A DNA stretch of 64,000 bases from positions 2,795,501-2,859,500 of the forward strand of contig NZ_CP032677.1 in assembly GCF_003627215.1 (NCBI RefSeq), read 5' to 3'. A program made the translations under genes and the position numbers. Positions 5,400 through 27,518 of the stretch are shown here, piece after piece. A model generated the notes under the pieces. That model was not told the origin of the DNA, did no database searches, and saw nothing but the letters and a program-made list of their open reading frames with translations. Origin of the DNA: Pseudomonas sp. Leaf58 (GTDB taxonomy: Bacteria > Pseudomonadota > Gammaproteobacteria > Pseudomonadales > Pseudomonadaceae). How positions within the stretch are numbered: the first letter of the stretch is position 1; each line of letters begins with the position of its first letter.

Positions 5400-6709
5400 G
5401 GTTTCAACTCCAGGGGTGCGCTGGCATCGTTGTGTGCCGGCGTATGCAGACGCTCCATGTCGCGGTGGTAATGACGTTTGGCCAGGAAAAACACCCCTGC
5501 CGCGCCGATGCTCATCAGCGGCACCAGCTGGAAGGCCGCGTGCAGGCCGATCAGGTCAGAAACCCGCCCGGTAATCAACGGCCCGGTGGCCAGGCCCAAC
5601 AGGTTGTTGGCCAGGGTCAAGGTGGCGAATGCCGTGCCATGCACCGAGGCGTGGGTAAGGTTGGCGACCATGGCACTGGAGGGGCCGTTGGTGCCGGCGG
5701 CTATCATCATGCCCAAGCAGATCAGCACCAGTTGCGCGGTGCCTGCTGGCAGTGCGAAAGCGAGGGACAACAGCGCGCAACTGCCCAGGCAGTAGGCGAT
5801 GGCCAGGCTGATCTTGCGGTCCGGGCGCTGCCGCCCAAGGCGGTCGCAGAGCATGGCGCAGAGGATCATGCCGATGCCGCTGCACAACACGATGACCGCG
5901 GCAATCGCCCCGGCACGGTCAGTGCCCATGGCGTAATAGCGGTTCAGGTAACTGGGCATCCACACGATCACGGTGCCACCGACGAACAGTTGCAGGCCGC
6001 TGCCGACGTAGGCGGCGATAACCGAACGGCTGCTGTACAGGCTACGCAACGGTCGGCTGGCCTTGCCCTGCGACTGCGCGCACTTGGGGGCAATGCGCGC
6101 CTCCTTGACGATCATCGGGTACAGCACTGCCAGCAACAGGCCAAACAATGCCATGCCGGCAAATGCCCAGCGCCAACCCAGGTGCTGGGCCAGCACGCCG
6201 CCCAGGGCCATGCCCAGTACCGAGCCGAACATGCCGCCGGCCATGAACGCACCGGCCAGGGTCGAGCGCATGTCGCGGGGGAACACGGCGACCACCACGG
6301 CGATACCGACACTGCCGTAGGCCGCCTCGCCGACCCCGACCAGAAAACGCGCGACGAACATTTGTGGGTAGTTTTCCGCCAGGGCGCAGCCCAACGTGGC
6401 CAGGCTCCACAGCACCGCCATCAGCACCAGGCTGCGCACCCGGCCAAAGCGGTCGGCCAGCAGCGACAGGGGGAAGGTCAGCAGGCCAACCATCAAGGCG
6501 ACAATGCCGCTGAGCAGGCCAAGCTGGCTGTCGCTCAGTGCCCATTCACCCTTGAGCAGCGGGAATACCGCGTTGAGTACCTGGCGCGACATGTAGTCGG
6601 AGATCAACAGGCCAAAGGTCAGGGCAAAGACTATCCAGGCATAGCGCCGGGGGACGCTGTGGGCGGTGTCGGTGCCGGAATCTTCGGCACTGGCGAGATA
6701 GGTGGCCAT
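5396..6709 (-). CDS. MFS transporter of the catabolic operon
   Basis: The preferred start is the ATG at 6709 (MATYLASAEDSG), preceded by a strong AAGGAGGCAGC ribosome site; a longer frame to 6772 lacks one. The product is about 437 residues with 12 hydrophobic segments. It has the conserved loop 2-3 motif GLLTFPLSLLADRFGRVRSL and resembles aromatic-acid or organic-acid importers of the major facilitator superfamily. It is the fourth gene of the operon, 121 bp downstream of the beta-keto-acid cleavage enzyme and overlapping the DsbA-like gene by ATGA. It probably imports the pathway substrate. Confidence 0.88.
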   Translation of the reverse strand: MATYLASAEDSGTDTAHSVPRRYAWIVFALTFGLLISDYMSRQVLNAVFPLLKGEWALSDSQLGLLSGIVALMVGLLTFPLSLLADRFGRVRSLVLMAVLWSLATLGCALAENYPQMFVARFLVGVGEAAYGSVGIAVVVAVFPRDMRSTLAGAFMAGGMFGSVLGMALGGVLAQHLGWRWAFAGMALFGLLLAVLYPMIVKEARIAPKCAQSQGKASRPLRSLYSSRSVIAAYVGSGLQLFVGGTVIVWMPSYLNRYYAMGTDRAGAIAAVIVLCSGIGMILCAMLCDRLGRQRPDRKISLAIAYCLGSCALLSLAFALPAGTAQLVLICLGMMIAAGTNGPSSAMVANLTHASVHGTAFATLTLANNLLGLATGPLITGRVSDLIGLHAAFQLVPLMSIGAAGVFFLAKRHYHRDMERLHTPAHNDASAPLELKP

Positions 6710-6830: not shown

Positions 6831-7883
6831 TCAGGTACGCTGCGGCACACCCTTCACGCCCGGCTGGCGGTTGGGCGCCATGCCGTTGGCCTTGAGGGTC
6901 TGTTCGATGCTGTCGTACTGCTGCCCAATGCGGTAAATGGCCCGTGCCTCTTTACCGCTGGCAATCTCGCGGCCCAGTTCGTGCGCCACACGCACGGTTT
7001 GCTGGATTTGCTGCACCGAGGTAAAGCGCTTGCCGTGCTGGTCGATGATGGTGTCTTCATTGCCGCAGCGCGGGTGCAGGCCCATGGCCAGGGCCATGGT
7101 GTTGAACGGCAGTACGTTCTTCAGCAGCGATTCGGCGGTCAGGGTGCAACCGTCTGGCGCGCGGTGGATGAAGTTGAAGAAGTTGAACGGGTTGGGGCCG
7201 TCGAAGCCGCCGCCAATGCCGATCCACGTCAAGTTCAGCGGGCCCATGTAGTCACCACGGCGGACGATGCGCTCGAGCGTCTCCAGGGCATGCATGCCAG
7301 TCAGCTGGAAATGCGGCTGGATGTTGCTGGCCTGCAGGCGGCGCAGGTGCTCGCGGACCCACGCCGGGCCGGCCGGTACGGTCATTTCGCTGTAGGCGGC
7401 ATGGATGGCCGGGCTGGCCAGCGAGGTGCCTTCCAGGTACTCCGGGTACAGCAGCTCCATGATGTTCATCTGCGTGGTGTTGATGGCCACGGTCACCTGG
7501 TCGGGGCGTGGCGTCAGCTCGGCGAGCATGTGCCGGGTGTCGTCCGACAGCCATTTGGCCGCCTCGCCTTCGCCTTCGGGGGCGAAGGAAATCGACCCGC
7601 CCACCTGGATGATCATGTCCGGCACCGCTTCGCGCACCCCGGCGATCAGTTCGTTGAACTTGGACAGGCGCTTGGAGCCTTTGCCGTCCAGCTCACGTAC
7701 ATGCAGGTGCAATACCGTGGCGCCTGCCTCGTAGCAGTCGACGGCCTTCTGCACCTGCTCGTCCATGGTCAGCGGAATGTCTTCAGGGAAGTCTTCGGGC
7801 ATCCACTCCGGGCCATAGGGGGCCACGGTGATCACCACCTTTTCCATGTTTTCCGGGTGCAACGAATCGTCGAAGAATTGCAT
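6831..7883 (-). CDS. Beta-keto-acid cleavage enzyme (BKACE, 3-keto-5-aminohexanoate cleavage family)
   Basis: A 350-residue TIM-barrel protein of the BKACE family (PF05853). It opens with MEKVVITVAPYGPEW at residue 13 and carries the metal-binding HLHVRE (H59, H61) plus GLHPRCGNEDT near the C-terminus. These zinc enzymes cleave a 3-keto acid with acetyl-CoA, giving acetoacetate and a new CoA ester. The ATG at 7883 has a GCGAGGA ribosome site. It is the third gene of the operon, behind a TauD-like dioxygenase. The protein is somewhat longer than many family members (about 275-310), with extra sequence at both ends. The actual keto acid is not predictable by eye. Confidence 0.88.
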   Translation of the reverse strand: MQFFDDSLHPENMEKVVITVAPYGPEWMPEDFPEDIPLTMDEQVQKAVDCYEAGATVLHLHVRELDGKGSKRLSKFNELIAGVREAVPDMIIQVGGSISFAPEGEGEAAKWLSDDTRHMLAELTPRPDQVTVAINTTQMNIMELLYPEYLEGTSLASPAIHAAYSEMTVPAGPAWVREHLRRLQASNIQPHFQLTGMHALETLERIVRRGDYMGPLNLTWIGIGGGFDGPNPFNFFNFIHRAPDGCTLTAESLLKNVLPFNTMALAMGLHPRCGNEDTIIDQHGKRFTSVQQIQQTVRVAHELGREIASGKEARAIYRIGQQYDSIEQTLKANGMAPNRQPGVKGVPQRT

Positions 7884-17420: not shown

Positions 17421-18803
17421 ATGAAACGCAACGGAACGCGAATTCGAGCGGTCATGGGTGAGATCCAGTCCAGGATTGCCTCACGAACCTACACACCTGG
17501 CGCGAGAATTCCTTCCGTCCGCGCAATGGCTCAGACCATGCAAGTATCGGTTTCTACCGTGCTTGAGGCCTATGAACGGTTGATGGCAGAGGGAGCCCTT
17601 AGCTCCCGCCCTGGCGCCGGCTTTTACGTAGCCGGGCCAGTGGCGCCATTGGTACTCACCGAGCTCGGCCCCAAACTGGATCGTGACGTCGACCCGCTGT
17701 GGATCTCGCGCCAGTCTCTTGAAACGTCCAGCGATGCATTGAAACCAGGCTGCGGCTGGTTACCTGCAGCGTGGATGTACGAAGCCGGCATGCGTAAAGC
17801 GCTTCGAGTCGCTGCCCGTTCTGACACGTTGGAACTGGCTGAGTACGCTTCACCGTGGGGGCATCCGCCCCTCCGGCAATTCTTGTCGCGACGACTGGCA
17901 GGCATCGGGATCGATGCCCCTCTGGAGCAGATCATGCTCACTGAGTCCGGCACTCACGCCATTGACCTGATTTGCCGTTTCCTGTTAGAGCCAGGAGACA
18001 CCGTGCTGGTCGACGACCCCTGCTATTTCAATTTTCACGCACTACTGAAAGCCCATAGGGTGAAGATTGTAGGAGTACCGTACACGGAGACGGGCCCAGA
18101 CATCGATGCATTTGGCGCTGCCTTGCTCAACCACTCTCCCCGGTTGTACATAACCAATTCAGGCATCCACAACCCAACCGGGGCCACCCTGTCTCCGGTC
18201 ACAGCGCACCGGCTGCTAAAGCTAGCCGACGCCTCTGGCCTGGTAATTGTCGAGGACGACATCTTCGGGGATTTCGAGAGTACTCCGGCCCCACGGCTGT
18301 CCGCTTTCGATGGTCTCTCTCATGTCATCCAGATAGGCAGCTTTTCCAAGACCATTTCCGCTTCAATTCGATGCGGTTACATCGCTGCTCGGCGGGAATG
18401 GATCGAGGGCCTGGTCGACCTCAAAATTGCGACCACCTTCGGCGGTGGCCGCTTGGCCGCAGACATCATCCATCAAGCGATTACCGATAGTGGGTACCGA
18501 AAACACATGGAAAGCATTCGTCTCCGGTTAGCCGAGGCAATGGACAGAACAGTAGCGAGGCTTCAGGCCATTGGAATCGAGCCCTGGATGATGCCCCAGG
18601 CAGGCATGTACGTCTGGTGCCAACTCCCTCAAGGTAAGGATGCAGCAACGCTGGCTAGGGCGTGTTTGAATGAAGGTGTAGTGCTAGCACCCGGAAATGC
18701 CTTTAGCCAGTCCAGGACTGCGGGGGGGTTCCTCCGTTTCAACGTTGCTCAATCTGAAGACGCAAAAATCTACGAAGTGTTGAAGCGCGCCCTGAGTGCT
18801 TAG
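17421..18803 (+). CDS. MocR-type regulator (GntR HTH fused to aminotransferase fold)
   Basis: A 460-residue fusion. Residues about 1-75 form a GntR winged helix (RTYTPGARIPSVRAMAQTMQVSVSTVLEAYERLMAEGAL). The rest is a fold-type-I aminotransferase-like domain with PLP-binding Lys in IGSFSKTISASIRCGYI and Asp in VIVEDDIFGDF. Such proteins usually sense PLP with an amine or amino acid rather than catalyse transamination. It is divergent from the EamA exporter and likely its regulator. Confidence 0.92.
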   Translation: MKRNGTRIRAVMGEIQSRIASRTYTPGARIPSVRAMAQTMQVSVSTVLEAYERLMAEGALSSRPGAGFYVAGPVAPLVLTELGPKLDRDVDPLWISRQSLETSSDALKPGCGWLPAAWMYEAGMRKALRVAARSDTLELAEYASPWGHPPLRQFLSRRLAGIGIDAPLEQIMLTESGTHAIDLICRFLLEPGDTVLVDDPCYFNFHALLKAHRVKIVGVPYTETGPDIDAFGAALLNHSPRLYITNSGIHNPTGATLSPVTAHRLLKLADASGLVIVEDDIFGDFESTPAPRLSAFDGLSHVIQIGSFSKTISASIRCGYIAARREWIEGLVDLKIATTFGGGRLAADIIHQAITDSGYRKHMESIRLRLAEAMDRTVARLQAIGIEPWMMPQAGMYVWCQLPQGKDAATLARACLNEGVVLAPGNAFSQSRTAGGFLRFNVAQSEDAKIYEVLKRALSA

Positions 18804-23845: not shown

Positions 23846-25111
23846 ATGACAACTCAAAACAAGGCCAAATGGCTCAGATTCCTAATTCTCATCCTCGGTG
23901 GCGGCACCATTTACAAGTTGGCGAACCTCAAGGACGCCTTCTATGTCCCCATGCAGGAATTCATGGGCCTGAGCCACACTGAAATCGGCATACTGTTGAG
24001 TGCCAACGCGATCATCGCGACTGCACTGTTTGTGCTTGGCGGCCTGCTCGCTGATCGCTACGACACGGGCAAGCTGATCCCTCTCGGCCTGATCGGGACC
24101 GGAAGTCTTGGGTTGTACTTGGCAACCTTTCCGCCCTTCAGCAGCTTGCTGATCGTGTTCAGTCTGTTAGCCATCTGCGCCGACTGCCTGTTTTGGCCGT
24201 CGCTGCTCAAAGCCATCCGTAACTTGGGTGACGATCAGGAACAAGGCCGGTTGTTCGGCCTGCTGGAAGGCGGGCGTGGCGTGGTTGATACGCTGGTGGC
24301 CTTTTCCGCACTGGGCGTGTTCGTCGCCATGGGCTCGGGGGAAACCGGCCTGAAATCGGCGATCCTGTTCTACTCGGTCATCGATATTCTGGCGGGCGCC
24401 CTGACCTGGGTGCTGCTCAAGGGCGGTAAAGCGCAATCGGCCGCCAAGCCGAAAAACGGTCTGGCGAACCTGATGGAGGCGATCAAGGTACCCGGTATCT
24501 GGTTGGTCAGTCTCAACGTGTTCATGGTCTACATCGTCTACTGCGGCCTGACCTATTTCATTCCCTACCTCAAGGAAATGTATGGCTTGCCCGTGGCGTT
24601 GGTAGGCGCCTACGGCATCATCAACCAATATTTCCTGAAAATCCTCGGCGGGCCTGCCGGCGGTTTCATTGCCGACAAGCAGTTCAAGAGTACCAGCCGT
24701 TACCTAAAGTGGGCATTTCTTGCGTTATTGCCGCTGATGGGCGTGATCATGCTGATTCCTAAAAGCCCGGGCTTCATCTATGCAGGGATGGCAGCCACCC
24801 TCTCCTTCGCCCTGATTGTGTTCTCGATGCGCGGCGTGTTTTGGGCACCCATGGGCGAAGTCGGCATTCCCCAGCACATCACTGGCTCGGCCTTCGGCAT
24901 TGGTTGCCTGATCGGCTATGCACCCGGCATGTTTGCCTACGTCATCTATGGCGCGATCCTCGACCACTTCCCAGGTCAACAGGGCTACAACTATGTGTTC
25001 ACCCTGATGAGCATGCTGGCCATTGCGGGCTTCATGGTGTCCAGCCTTCTCTATCAAGCGGTGCGCAAAAAATCCATGCTCACTGGCGGGGTCAGCGCGG
25101 TACAAGCCTAA
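23846..25111 (+). CDS. MFS transporter of the aminotransferase/TIM-barrel unit
   Basis: A 421-residue membrane protein with 12 hydrophobic segments. It carries an MFS loop motif in GGLLADRYDTGKLIPLG and a helix-4 region with CLFWPSLLKAIRNLGDDQEQGRLFGLLEGGRG. The start has a CGGAGAA ribosome site. It is the last gene of the plus-strand unit; a hairpin and a T-run terminator follow within 80 bp. It probably imports the substrate processed by the preceding aminotransferase and TIM-barrel protein. Confidence 0.88.
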   Translation: MTTQNKAKWLRFLILILGGGTIYKLANLKDAFYVPMQEFMGLSHTEIGILLSANAIIATALFVLGGLLADRYDTGKLIPLGLIGTGSLGLYLATFPPFSSLLIVFSLLAICADCLFWPSLLKAIRNLGDDQEQGRLFGLLEGGRGVVDTLVAFSALGVFVAMGSGETGLKSAILFYSVIDILAGALTWVLLKGGKAQSAAKPKNGLANLMEAIKVPGIWLVSLNVFMVYIVYCGLTYFIPYLKEMYGLPVALVGAYGIINQYFLKILGGPAGGFIADKQFKSTSRYLKWAFLALLPLMGVIMLIPKSPGFIYAGMAATLSFALIVFSMRGVFWAPMGEVGIPQHITGSAFGIGCLIGYAPGMFAYVIYGAILDHFPGQQGYNYVFTLMSMLAIAGFMVSSLLYQAVRKKSMLTGGVSAVQA

Positions 25112-25129
25112 TTAACGCCATGGGTTTCA

Positions 25130-25194
25130 GGAGGAGGGATCGCCCATCATGCCGATTCCTCCTCCGCCCACAACGCCGGACGCACCGGTTTTTT
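25130..25194 (+). terminator. Hairpin plus T-run terminator after the MFS gene
   Basis: A 13-bp near-perfect inverted repeat (arms 25130-25142 and 25153-25165, GGAGGAGGGATCG) is followed by a short CCGG-ACGCA-CCGG hairpin and six Ts (25176-25194). The T run overlaps the stop codon of the convergent YcaQ-like gene. Confidence 0.55.
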
Positions 25195-26170
25195 AGCTAC
25201 AGGAAAACTCCCCCTCCACGTCCACTTGGCCATCTACCAACGCCTGGATCTCTGCGAAGACATCTGAAGCTAGGCTCGCCGGGACGCCCCAATAATCAAA
25301 GATCCCGCCCTCATCTCGATTTTGGCCACACGTAACAAAAACCCCGGTCCCAAACCGCTGCTTCAGGCGCATTGCCAGCCAGCCAACGAACCCGCTGTTA
25401 TCGGCGCCTTCCGGAAAATGGAATCTGAAGACACCAAACAGCTCTTGCTCGACGTCCGCACAGGGGACTAGTTGACTCCATACCTTGTCATCTCGTACCA
25501 GCGCCAGTGCATCCGGGCGTGCGGCACTAGAAAACGATGACAGAGGAAACTCCAGGAACGTGTACGTGCCGGGGAAGAACCGGACACGCGCTTCGGTCAT
25601 TACGTGCAACAGTCGGCGCTCCGTGTCCCGTGCCGTTTCATGGGAAATGTTCACCCTTTCATACAAATCGCCCTGCATGAACAACTTGTCCAGCGCGCGC
25701 CGGCCAGGCCCGTGGTCCCACCATGAGCCCTGACCTTTGCCCCGCTCTTTGAGGTCGCGTGTGCGCAGCATGCCTTCACCTCGCACCCGATCCAGGATTT
25801 CCGCCATCAACTTGGCGCTGACATTCCTGAAATAGGGACTCTCACCACGCCGAAAATACAGCATGCGCGGCAATGCAAAACGGTAGTCTCGAATCGGCAG
25901 GTAAGCGGCAGCGTGAAACCAATACTCAAAAACCCGCCCAGCACATGTCAGCTGGTTGAGAGCGTCCAAGGAATACCCGGGCACGCGACTCCATAGGATG
26001 TGATGATGCGCTCTCTCAACGACAGACAACGTGTCGATTTGCACATAACCTAAATGCTCTATCGCGCGGAGCGTGCCCTCAAGACCATGGCCAAATACCT
26101 TGCTCGAACCTAGGCCTTGATGATCGAGAGCCAGTCGCCGCCAATAGGTTAGATTAGATTGAATTGCCAC
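25193..26170 (-). CDS. YcaQ-like DNA glycosylase N-terminal half joined to an unrelated C-terminal domain
   Basis: About 325 residues from the GTG at 26170, seven bases after AAGG; a TTG at 26176 is the other choice. Residues about 1-175 match the YcaQ/AlkX winged-helix family (HTH_42), including QIDTLSVVERAHHHILWSRV, EYWFHAAAYLPIRDYRFALPRM and GSWWDHGPGRRALDKLFMQGDL. From about residue 180 the usual YcaQ tail is missing. In its place is FFPGTYTFLEFPLSSF..DNSGFVGWLAMRLKQRFGTGVFVTCGQNRDEGGIFDYWG, which recalls the DUF6196 family (by memory). The protein is shorter than normal YcaQ (about 400). It lies 26 bp after the GFA gene, behind a LexA box. YcaQ proteins unhook DNA interstrand crosslinks; whether this fusion retains activity is unknown. 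Confidence 0.75.
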   Translation of the reverse strand: MAIQSNLTYWRRLALDHQGLGSSKVFGHGLEGTLRAIEHLGYVQIDTLSVVERAHHHILWSRVPGYSLDALNQLTCAGRVFEYWFHAAAYLPIRDYRFALPRMLYFRRGESPYFRNVSAKLMAEILDRVRGEGMLRTRDLKERGKGQGSWWDHGPGRRALDKLFMQGDLYERVNISHETARDTERRLLHVMTEARVRFFPGTYTFLEFPLSSFSSAARPDALALVRDDKVWSQLVPCADVEQELFGVFRFHFPEGADNSGFVGWLAMRLKQRFGTGVFVTCGQNRDEGGIFDYWGVPASLASDVFAEIQALVDGQVDVEGEFSCS

Positions 26171-26196
26171 GTTCAAGCCTTGGTCGGGGGCGCCGG

Positions 26197-26592
26197 TTAT
26201 TGGTGTGGATGTTCTGGAAACTGCTGCGCGCTGTCGCAGATGTCGTACCAGCTTGGCTTTTCCTTGACGAACTCATGGAAGAGATTGGTGATTGTCAATG
26301 CCCCATCGATGCAGTTCGCAGCCACGGGAAACGAATCAGCGGTTGATGTCACCTCGCCCAATGCTGTTCCGCACTGCGAACAGAAGCAACGGTTGTACTT
26401 ATAAGGTGCTTCAGGCGTGAAAGTGGTGATGGAATCTGCGCCGGAAATCAGCTCGAACGATGAGCGCTTTACAAACACGAAGGTACTTGCTCCGACCTTT
26501 CTGCAACGAGAGCAATGACATGTTCCCATCATTGTTGGAGCACTCGACACCAAGAACCTCACCGCTCCGCAGCAGCAGCTACCCTTAAGCAT
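26197..26592 (-). CDS. GFA-domain protein (CENP-V/glutathione-dependent formaldehyde-activating fold)
   Basis: A 131-residue zinc-binding protein from the ATG at 26592, which follows GGGAGA. Three Cys clusters typical of the GFA family are visible: GSCCCGAVRF, GTCHCSRCRK and CFCSQCGTAL. Members bind two zinc ions and some bind glutathione, but most have no proven reaction. A perfect CTGT-N8-ACAG LexA box lies 23 bp upstream of the start. The gene leads into the YcaQ-like fusion 26 bp downstream, which suggests a damage-inducible two-gene operon. Confidence 0.88.
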   Translation of the reverse strand: MLKGSCCCGAVRFLVSSAPTMMGTCHCSRCRKVGASTFVFVKRSSFELISGADSITTFTPEAPYKYNRCFCSQCGTALGEVTSTADSFPVAANCIDGALTITNLFHEFVKEKPSWYDICDSAQQFPEHPHQ

Positions 26593-26614
26593 GGCTTTCT
26601 CCCATAAAAAATAA

Positions 26615-26630
26615 CTGTACATAAATACAG
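26615..26630 (-). promoter_or_regulatory. LexA (SOS) box upstream of the GFA/YcaQ-like pair
   Basis: CTGTACATAAATACAG is a perfect CTGT-N8-ACAG match to the gammaproteobacterial LexA operator, with an AT-rich core and TA flanks. It ends 23 bp before the GFA start codon, where a promoter would be. Confidence 0.75.
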
Positions 26631-26756
26631 TACACATTAAAAGAGCGCCTTACCAAAAACTTCAGGGTCTCAGATGGACGAAGGGCAGCTATGGGTTGAA
26701 AACACAAAGACGCCATGCCGCTTGCGGAACGGGTCGATCGTAAAAAACGAGAAGGC

Positions 26757-27518
26757 CTAGGTCAGATTCAACCCGCCGTCTGAAAGGAGTATCTCGCCCG
26801 TCAAGTAGTCCGACTCGACCAGCATTACCACAGCTTTTGCGATGTCGTCTGGGCTAGCCGCCCTGCGCATAGGTGCGCGAGTTCGCCACATTTCTTGCGC
26901 TTCTGTCCACCCTGCGGTCAGAGGCGTGTCGACCAAGCCAGGCGCCACAGCGTTTACGCGAATTTCTGGCCCCAACGATACCGCGAGCAAGCGGGTCATG
27001 TGATTCAGCGCAGCTTTGCTTACCGCATAAGGAATCGATGCCCCCTTAGGACGGATACCAGCATGCGAACTGATGTTCACTACGCAACCTGCTCGACGGT
27101 AACGGGCGGCATCGCGCAGTGCCGACTCGGCCAATGCGACCAGGTGGAACGGCGCCACGACATTAACCTCGTTAAGTTCGCGCCACACCGTCGAGTTGGC
27201 CGAGCCAAGGTCGCGGTGCGGAATAACTTTGCTAATACCGGCGTTATTGACCAATACGTCGAGCTGCCCCCACGCGGCGATCGCCTCGTTAATAAGCCTG
27301 ACCCTGTCAGCTTCGAATGCCAGATCAGCTTGCACGTAAACAGCCTGCTTCATTTCGGCAACCATAGCGCGTCCCGTCTCCGCAGAACTTCGCGAATGAA
27401 GCACCACCGCATAGCCTGCCTGGCTTAGCACGCGTGCAATGGCTGCGCCAATACCGGAAGTGGACCCTGTAACCAACGCGACGCGTAATACGTTATCGAT
27501 TGGCGGGTTGGGTTTCAT
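26757..27518 (-). CDS. SDR-family oxidoreductase
   Basis: A 253-residue short-chain dehydrogenase/reductase. The cofactor motif is [14 protein letters not shown], followed by NNAGISK. The catalytic Ser is in [10 protein letters not shown] and the Tyr/Lys pair in [17 protein letters not shown] after the second strand suggests NADPH. The C-terminal [18 protein letters not shown] is typical of 3-oxoacyl-ACP-reductase-like SDRs. Its ATG overlaps the stop of a 34-codon ORF (ATGA), implying coupled translation. Substrate unknown. Confidence 0.9.

Follow-up and report, generated by a model that had tools for sequence, protein, structure and literature searches.

The GFA gene of Pseudomonas sp. Leaf58 described here is likely to encode a thiol-type zinc protein from a distinct clade within the SOS response, and the gene behind it is a cut and fused copy of a YcaQ-like gene. 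The LexA-type box before the GFA gene of the window (the whole stretch of 64,000 nucleotides that was analysed, to which all coordinates refer) is real, and it stands beyond chance once its genome and ortholog context are counted. In other bacterial classes, relatives are preceded by the version of the damage switch that belongs to their own class, a pattern that points to an overlooked damage-response gene, and this comparison makes it very probable that the clade belongs to the SOS response. Only the GFA gene itself is conserved as a damage-controlled unit; a GFA-YcaQ pair is real in other loci but uncommon.

Results

The LexA-type box in the window and in the host genome

The original prediction placed a perfect CTGT-N8-ACAG operator, CTGTACATAAATACAG, at 26615-26630 before the GFA gene, and the site is there as described, with flanks that give an ACTGT-N8-ACAGT-like context; since the start codon occupies 26592-26590, the spacing is 22 bases and not the 23 bp first given (Table 1). 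The window holds two exact CTGT-N8-ACAG sites against 0.81 expected by shuffling, and at least two were present in 19 of 100 shuffles, so the match to CTGTACATAAATACAG by itself is not beyond chance. The other exact site, CTGTCTCCGGTCACAG at 18189-18204, has a GC-rich interior and is perhaps a chance occurrence.

The 6.3 Mb host genome (G000) supplies a wider context. TACTGT-N8-ACAG has 14 matches there (11 distinct places, three of them counted on both strands) versus 2 for the reversed control pattern. Four of the six genes scanned behind these boxes could be named, as a PA0069-family radical SAM protein, YebG, a DUF1654 protein and a Dam-type methyltransferase, and no family was found for the other two. 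The Dam-type methyltransferase gene has two host copies (L126, L132) behind LexA-type boxes, perhaps in prophages. Pseudomonas putida has two LexA systems, and in the present host the LexA DNA-binding domain occurs in two genes: lexA has CTGTACAAAAAGACAG directly upstream, and the second gene is preceded by GTACAAATGTGC, a different site. The exact box, the genome-wide pattern and the same box type before lexA together identify an operator of the host-LexA type in the GFA promoter region.

Table 1. Features of the GFA locus in the window, with coordinates and strand
Feature	Position	Strand	Remarks
LexA-type operator CTGTACATAAATACAG	26615..26630	.	exact CTGT-N8-ACAG; conserved before GFA orthologs
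Upstream stretch holding the box	26593..26691	-	common to L037 and L039 up to 26691 (blastn, window vs loci)
GFA gene, 131 aa, ATG at 26592	26197..26592	-	PF04828; cysteines; model and fold match
In-frame fusion of the YcaQ N-terminal part and DUF6196, 327 aa counted from a TTG whose use as start is uncertain	25193..26176	-	
YcaQ-derived part	25659..26176	-	keeps Q46-I47-D48; 92-93% DNA identity to intact ycaQ of L037, L039
DUF6196-derived part	25196..25664	-	PF19696, 195 bits; 90% DNA identity to L002
Fusion point	25659..25664	-	two homologies overlap by six bases (blastn)

Conservation of the box across classes

A scan of genome_contigs gave 135 relatives, of which 80 were taken in and 55 left out; the 80 loci comprise 54 from alphaproteobacteria, 21 from beta- and gammaproteobacteria and 5 others, with classes assigned by hand from the record titles. 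Within 150 bases upstream of the GFA gene in this first set, the alphaproteobacterial loci carry GTTC-N7-GTTC in 46 of 54 cases and CTGT-N8-ACAG in 0/54, the beta/gamma loci carry CTGT-N8-ACAG in 17 of 21 and GTTC-N7-GTTC in 0/21, and the five loci from other phyla have neither motif (0/5). Control ORFs of the same loci have GTTC-N7-GTTC in 2/455 cases (alpha) and CTGT-N8-ACAG in 2/165 (beta/gamma), and the motifs occur in 0.16% and 0.19% of mononucleotide-shuffled upstream regions. For the final counts, later loci were added to both groups and duplicates taken out, six of them alphaproteobacterial: GTTC-N7-GTTC stands 26-45 bases before the start in 62 of 73 alphaproteobacterial clade loci, and CTGT-N8-ACAG stands at 22-65 bases in 20 of 24 beta/gamma clade loci. 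The operator is thus conserved among orthologs in each host's LexA form, the GTTC form being likewise used for alphaproteobacteria in the text of PMC6473078. Absence of the box from orthologous loci had been named as the outcome that would speak against LexA control, and the boxes are present; the predicted control of the GFA gene by LexA is strongly supported by this comparison.

Some loci depart from the pattern. Four of the 24 beta/gamma loci are without the exact box, and two of these, L052 and L068, have CTGG-N8-ACAG, one mismatch from it. Five of the six Pseudomonas genomes with a close GFA gene have the exact box at a similar place; G154 has none, and attC-like sites lie upstream of its unboxed GFA gene. 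Among the loci from other phyla, only L089 of Pyxidicoccus has a LexA-like site, some 80-97 bases upstream of GFA and one mismatch from the Myxococcus SOS box in the form given in the text of PMC9705874, and it is the sole place with at most two mismatches in that 12 kb locus. No LexA site was recognised in the Bacteriovoracaceae locus with the motifs tried, nor in two cyanobacterial loci with the proteobacterial motifs, the only ones tried there. Two GTTC-N7-GTTC sites, 11 bases apart, precede a single GFA gene in L118 and in L099, and L056 has a second, different GFA-type frame (CHCLDC) downstream of its boxed GFA gene.

The GFA protein and its clade

The identification as a GFA protein was borne out. 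The product scores 61.6 bits against PF04828, for which the cut-off is 24.3, and its structure model matches the fold of solved GFA members (VIA-align). Within the GFA/CENP-V family (Paracoccus Gfa, 1x6m; PA2722, 8ajq; RSP_2168, 3fac) it is thus alike in family score, fold and cysteine sets. Seven zinc-type cysteines (C6, C8, C25, C27, C30, C71, C74) form the sets C-x-C, C-x-C-x-x-C and C-x-x-C and are all kept in 86 of 86 clade rows; when aligned to the solved chains, the first set lies two columns off in 1x6m and in line in 3fac and 8ajq. The clade differs from the rest of the family by its LexA box and by R29, E80, E107 and other residues that mark it and are nearly absent in 52 other GFA rows; the clade protein is highly conserved, with a mean column identity of 68%. 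DNA binding by the GFA protein is not favoured, the mean net charge of the clade being -1.9 and K+R equalling D+E in the window protein.

In a tree of 138 GFA proteins, built on few columns and with its bootstrap not settled, a single branch (support 100/94) gathers 86 rows, 69 of them boxed within 200 bases upstream, and the 52 rows outside it have no box in the same interval (0/52). L065 (too short), L147 and L157 (duplicates) were left off this tree, as were L241 and L242, which were placed outside the clade by score alone. Likewise, where 30 of the 87 GFA places in 12 genomes were fetched as loci, both clade members are boxed and the other GFA genes are not (0/28), and none of 24 more distant GFA genes fetched from the phylum sample has a box. 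By this comparison, the LexA box is a property of one GFA clade. The alphaproteobacterial member from Aurantiacibacter (L082) lies inside a branch (99/95) of beta/gamma rows and yet carries the alpha box, which adaptation of the operator to a new host would predict.

Unboxed alphaproteobacterial members

Each of the 11 alphaproteobacterial members that lack a LexA box carries TGCTGACA or TGTCAGCA no more than 200 bases away. By comparison, 1 of the 68 members with a box and 8 of the 987 control ORFs have either motif, counts that include six duplicate boxed loci. A relative of the regulator found in L105 is present in the locus of five of the 11, and the three scanned of these five (L084, L105, L111) combine HTH_11 and WYL domains and are divergent to GFA. 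WYL proteins such as PafBC and DriD can sense DNA damage. We infer that a WYL-type regulator binds the TGCTGACA/TGTCAGCA motif.

The fused gene of the window and intact pairs elsewhere

The neighbouring gene had been read as YcaQ-like, which holds for its N-terminal part. Residues 39-171 match the AlkZ-like domain (PF06224), and the Q-hydrophobic-Q/D catalytic motif, as defined in the text of PMC7367128, is present as Q46-I47-D48; the match covers model positions 1-137 of 329, so the domain is truncated, and unlike the AlkZ/YcaQ glycosylases, and unlike related loci with an intact partner, the window copy is without the C-terminal half. About 172 YcaQ-like residues are kept and joined in frame to a DUF6196 domain at residues 175-314 of the fused frame. 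The homology to L037 and L039 covers 25659-26691, and the DUF6196 homology to L002 covers 25196-25664; in the relatives G002 and G021, similarity to the window breaks off at 25109, the end of an MFS gene. The dN/dS of the YcaQ part, 0.17 against L037 and 0.23 against L039, is similar to the 0.17 between the intact copies. Cut and fused, the gene is probably no longer a glycosylase. No other AlkZ-like match was found in the host genome at E 0.001, and thus a full-length gene of this kind is absent from it, whereas 152 of the 199 genomes searched in the genus had a YcaQ match. DUF6196 is a family without known function, and its gene stands free in other Pseudomonas (L002, L003, L004, L005).

A damage-inducible GFA-YcaQ pair had been proposed for the window. 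Intact pairs behind one box do exist in L037 (the same as L042), L039, L045 and L047, from two other Pseudomonas, a Polaromonas and a Comamonas. With four query proteins at E 1e-5, however, YcaQ lies near GFA in only 3 of the 80 loci taken from the 135 relatives, and YcaQ homologs away from GFA, 8 from clade genomes and 23 from other Pseudomonas, are boxed within 600 bases in none of 31 cases; the neighbourhood survey thus upholds the pair as a real but occasional arrangement, and for the window copy the fusion speaks against it. The ycaQ of G183 has an in-frame stop, after which homology is lost. L037 and L039 have one block of 1.7 kb in common, which starts some 100 bases ahead of GFA and closes shortly after ycaQ; at E 1e-5, the rest of their 13-14 kb shows no further similarity. 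The common part of L044 and L045 is the upstream stretch and GFA only.

Distribution and mobility

The GFA clade is uncommon and patchy, since close GFA genes were found in 6 of 398 Pseudomonas genomes, the clade in 21 of 244 genomes of the alphaproteobacterial order of G474 (19 of the 21 boxed, six of the loci repeating ones from earlier sets), and matches in 5 of 369 genomes of a class sample. Three of these five score as clade members (G000 and G1055, boxed, and L240, unboxed), and the two below the clade score are unboxed. The phylum sample of 398 genomes contains six members, boxed in G000, G474, G757 and G761 and unboxed in G154 and G751.

Several loci bear signs of mobility. Attachment-site-like (attC-like) pairs lie near GFA in L046, L049 and, less convincingly, L071 among the 80 loci; L049 has the LexA box inside the attC-flanked cassette, and L046 has attC-like pairs and no box. 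The pairs in L046 and L049 point to GFA as a potential integron cassette. Transposase-like frames, judged by eye, adjoin the G183 copy in L006. In L039 (G237), 15-base perfect inverted repeats at 5583-5597 and 7307-7321 bound the GFA-ycaQ block, and these repeats were not found in the other loci compared. Phage carriage was set aside: not one of the 6 pattern matches from a scan of viral_contigs was a relative, and nine phage records match at 24-32% identity. A single plasmid record, with 45.6% identity, passed the E-value limit applied, and the DNA of 25000-26760 matched 3 Acinetobacter records over 5-13% of its length. Rfam returned two tRNAs only on seven loci. A common operon partner was also rejected: in a neighbour survey with mechanically picked ORFs, no family across genera offered an explanation, the largest clusters came from near relatives such as Leisingera, and no pathway pointed to a chemical role for the clade.

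Discussion

The GFA clade resembles the known LexA (SOS) regulon, in its CTGT-N8-ACAG and GTTC-N7-GTTC types, in carrying the host-class operator at an almost constant position upstream of the start codon, and host lexA is preceded by the same type of box; it differs in being patchy and not a core SOS gene. The papers searched, by their main text and few of them from subscription journals, gave no instance of a GFA gene described as a LexA target, and an earlier prediction of the GFA gene as an SOS member may exist, for example in supplements or preprints. Among the matches listed, no paper pairs LexA with a GFA family protein or COG3791, and none was found that joins mitomycin with the formaldehyde-activating enzyme; the SOS response and that enzyme come together in one formaldehyde-stress paper among the matches listed (PMC7916467). 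The main text of PMC6473078, which lists predicted LexA targets of Dinoroseobacter, is without the words formaldehyde and glutathione.

In undamaged cells, a host LexA of the CTGT-N8-ACAG type would sit on 26615-26630 and repress the GFA gene, and after DNA damage the RecA-driven cleavage of LexA would release it, as we infer from the presence, position and conservation of the box. The gene would encode a small, two-zinc, thiol-type GFA protein with clade-only residues; in the weakest step of the model, this protein would most likely remove a reactive small molecule, or a thiol adduct, that arises together with DNA damage. Some Pseudomonas and Comamonadaceae have the GFA gene and a YcaQ-type glycosylase gene side by side behind one box, in a block of about 1.7 kb within unrelated surroundings. 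A broader reading, tentative and somewhat doubtful as a whole, is that of an SOS effector spread by horizontal transfer, in which a zinc enzyme removes a genotoxic electrophile or its thiol adduct as a chemical-detoxification arm of the SOS response, with the unboxed alphaproteobacterial lineages under another regulator, probably of the WYL type, and with some lineages bundling a YcaQ-type glycosylase into a mobile genotoxin-tolerance block.

Other explanations were weighed against SOS control of the GFA clade. The box might have arisen by chance or serve a different regulator, with the GFA gene outside the SOS response, and the window match taken alone would allow as much; this is very improbable, given two motifs, each its class's LexA form, which recur at an almost constant position upstream of the genes of one GFA clade and are absent before other GFA genes. 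It is also improbable, if less strikingly so, that SOS control serves the spread of the gene instead of the cell, with GFA a passenger of mobile blocks or integron cassettes that is on when the elements move. Discrete blocks in unrelated surroundings would fit a passenger, as would the attC-like pairs flanking GFA in L046 and L049, the transposase-like frames of L006 and the inverted repeats around the L039 block, but a shared mobile element is unseen at many alphaproteobacterial loci, the protein is highly conserved, and the box was retained after the transfer suggested by L082.

Unlikely, too, is the proposal that the GFA protein and a crosslink glycosylase form a damage-inducible pair acting jointly on formaldehyde-type DNA crosslinks. 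The intact pairs behind one box speak for it, and E. coli YcaQ is described in the text of PMC7367128 as unhooking crosslinks, but the rarity of YcaQ beside GFA, the unboxed YcaQ homologs at a distance from it and the truncated window copy argue against joint action, and the formaldehyde reaction is reported as not catalysed by Paracoccus GFA. The text of PMC7367128 also gives E. coli ycaQ expression as unchanged by mechlorethamine, unlike what a LexA-controlled copy would do. We do not accept formaldehyde or crosslink repair as an established role, either being unproven.

On the preferred reading, that of a GFA clade under SOS control, the retention of a LexA box across classes while its form changes would imply selection for damage control of the gene. 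A gene present in a few percent of genomes is easily overlooked because SOS regulons have mostly been described species by species. The GFA/CENP-V family, long vague, would become testable through a clade with a defined expected inducer, one that offers clade-only residues beside the zinc ligands in the sequence and a DNA glycosylase that is sometimes attached.
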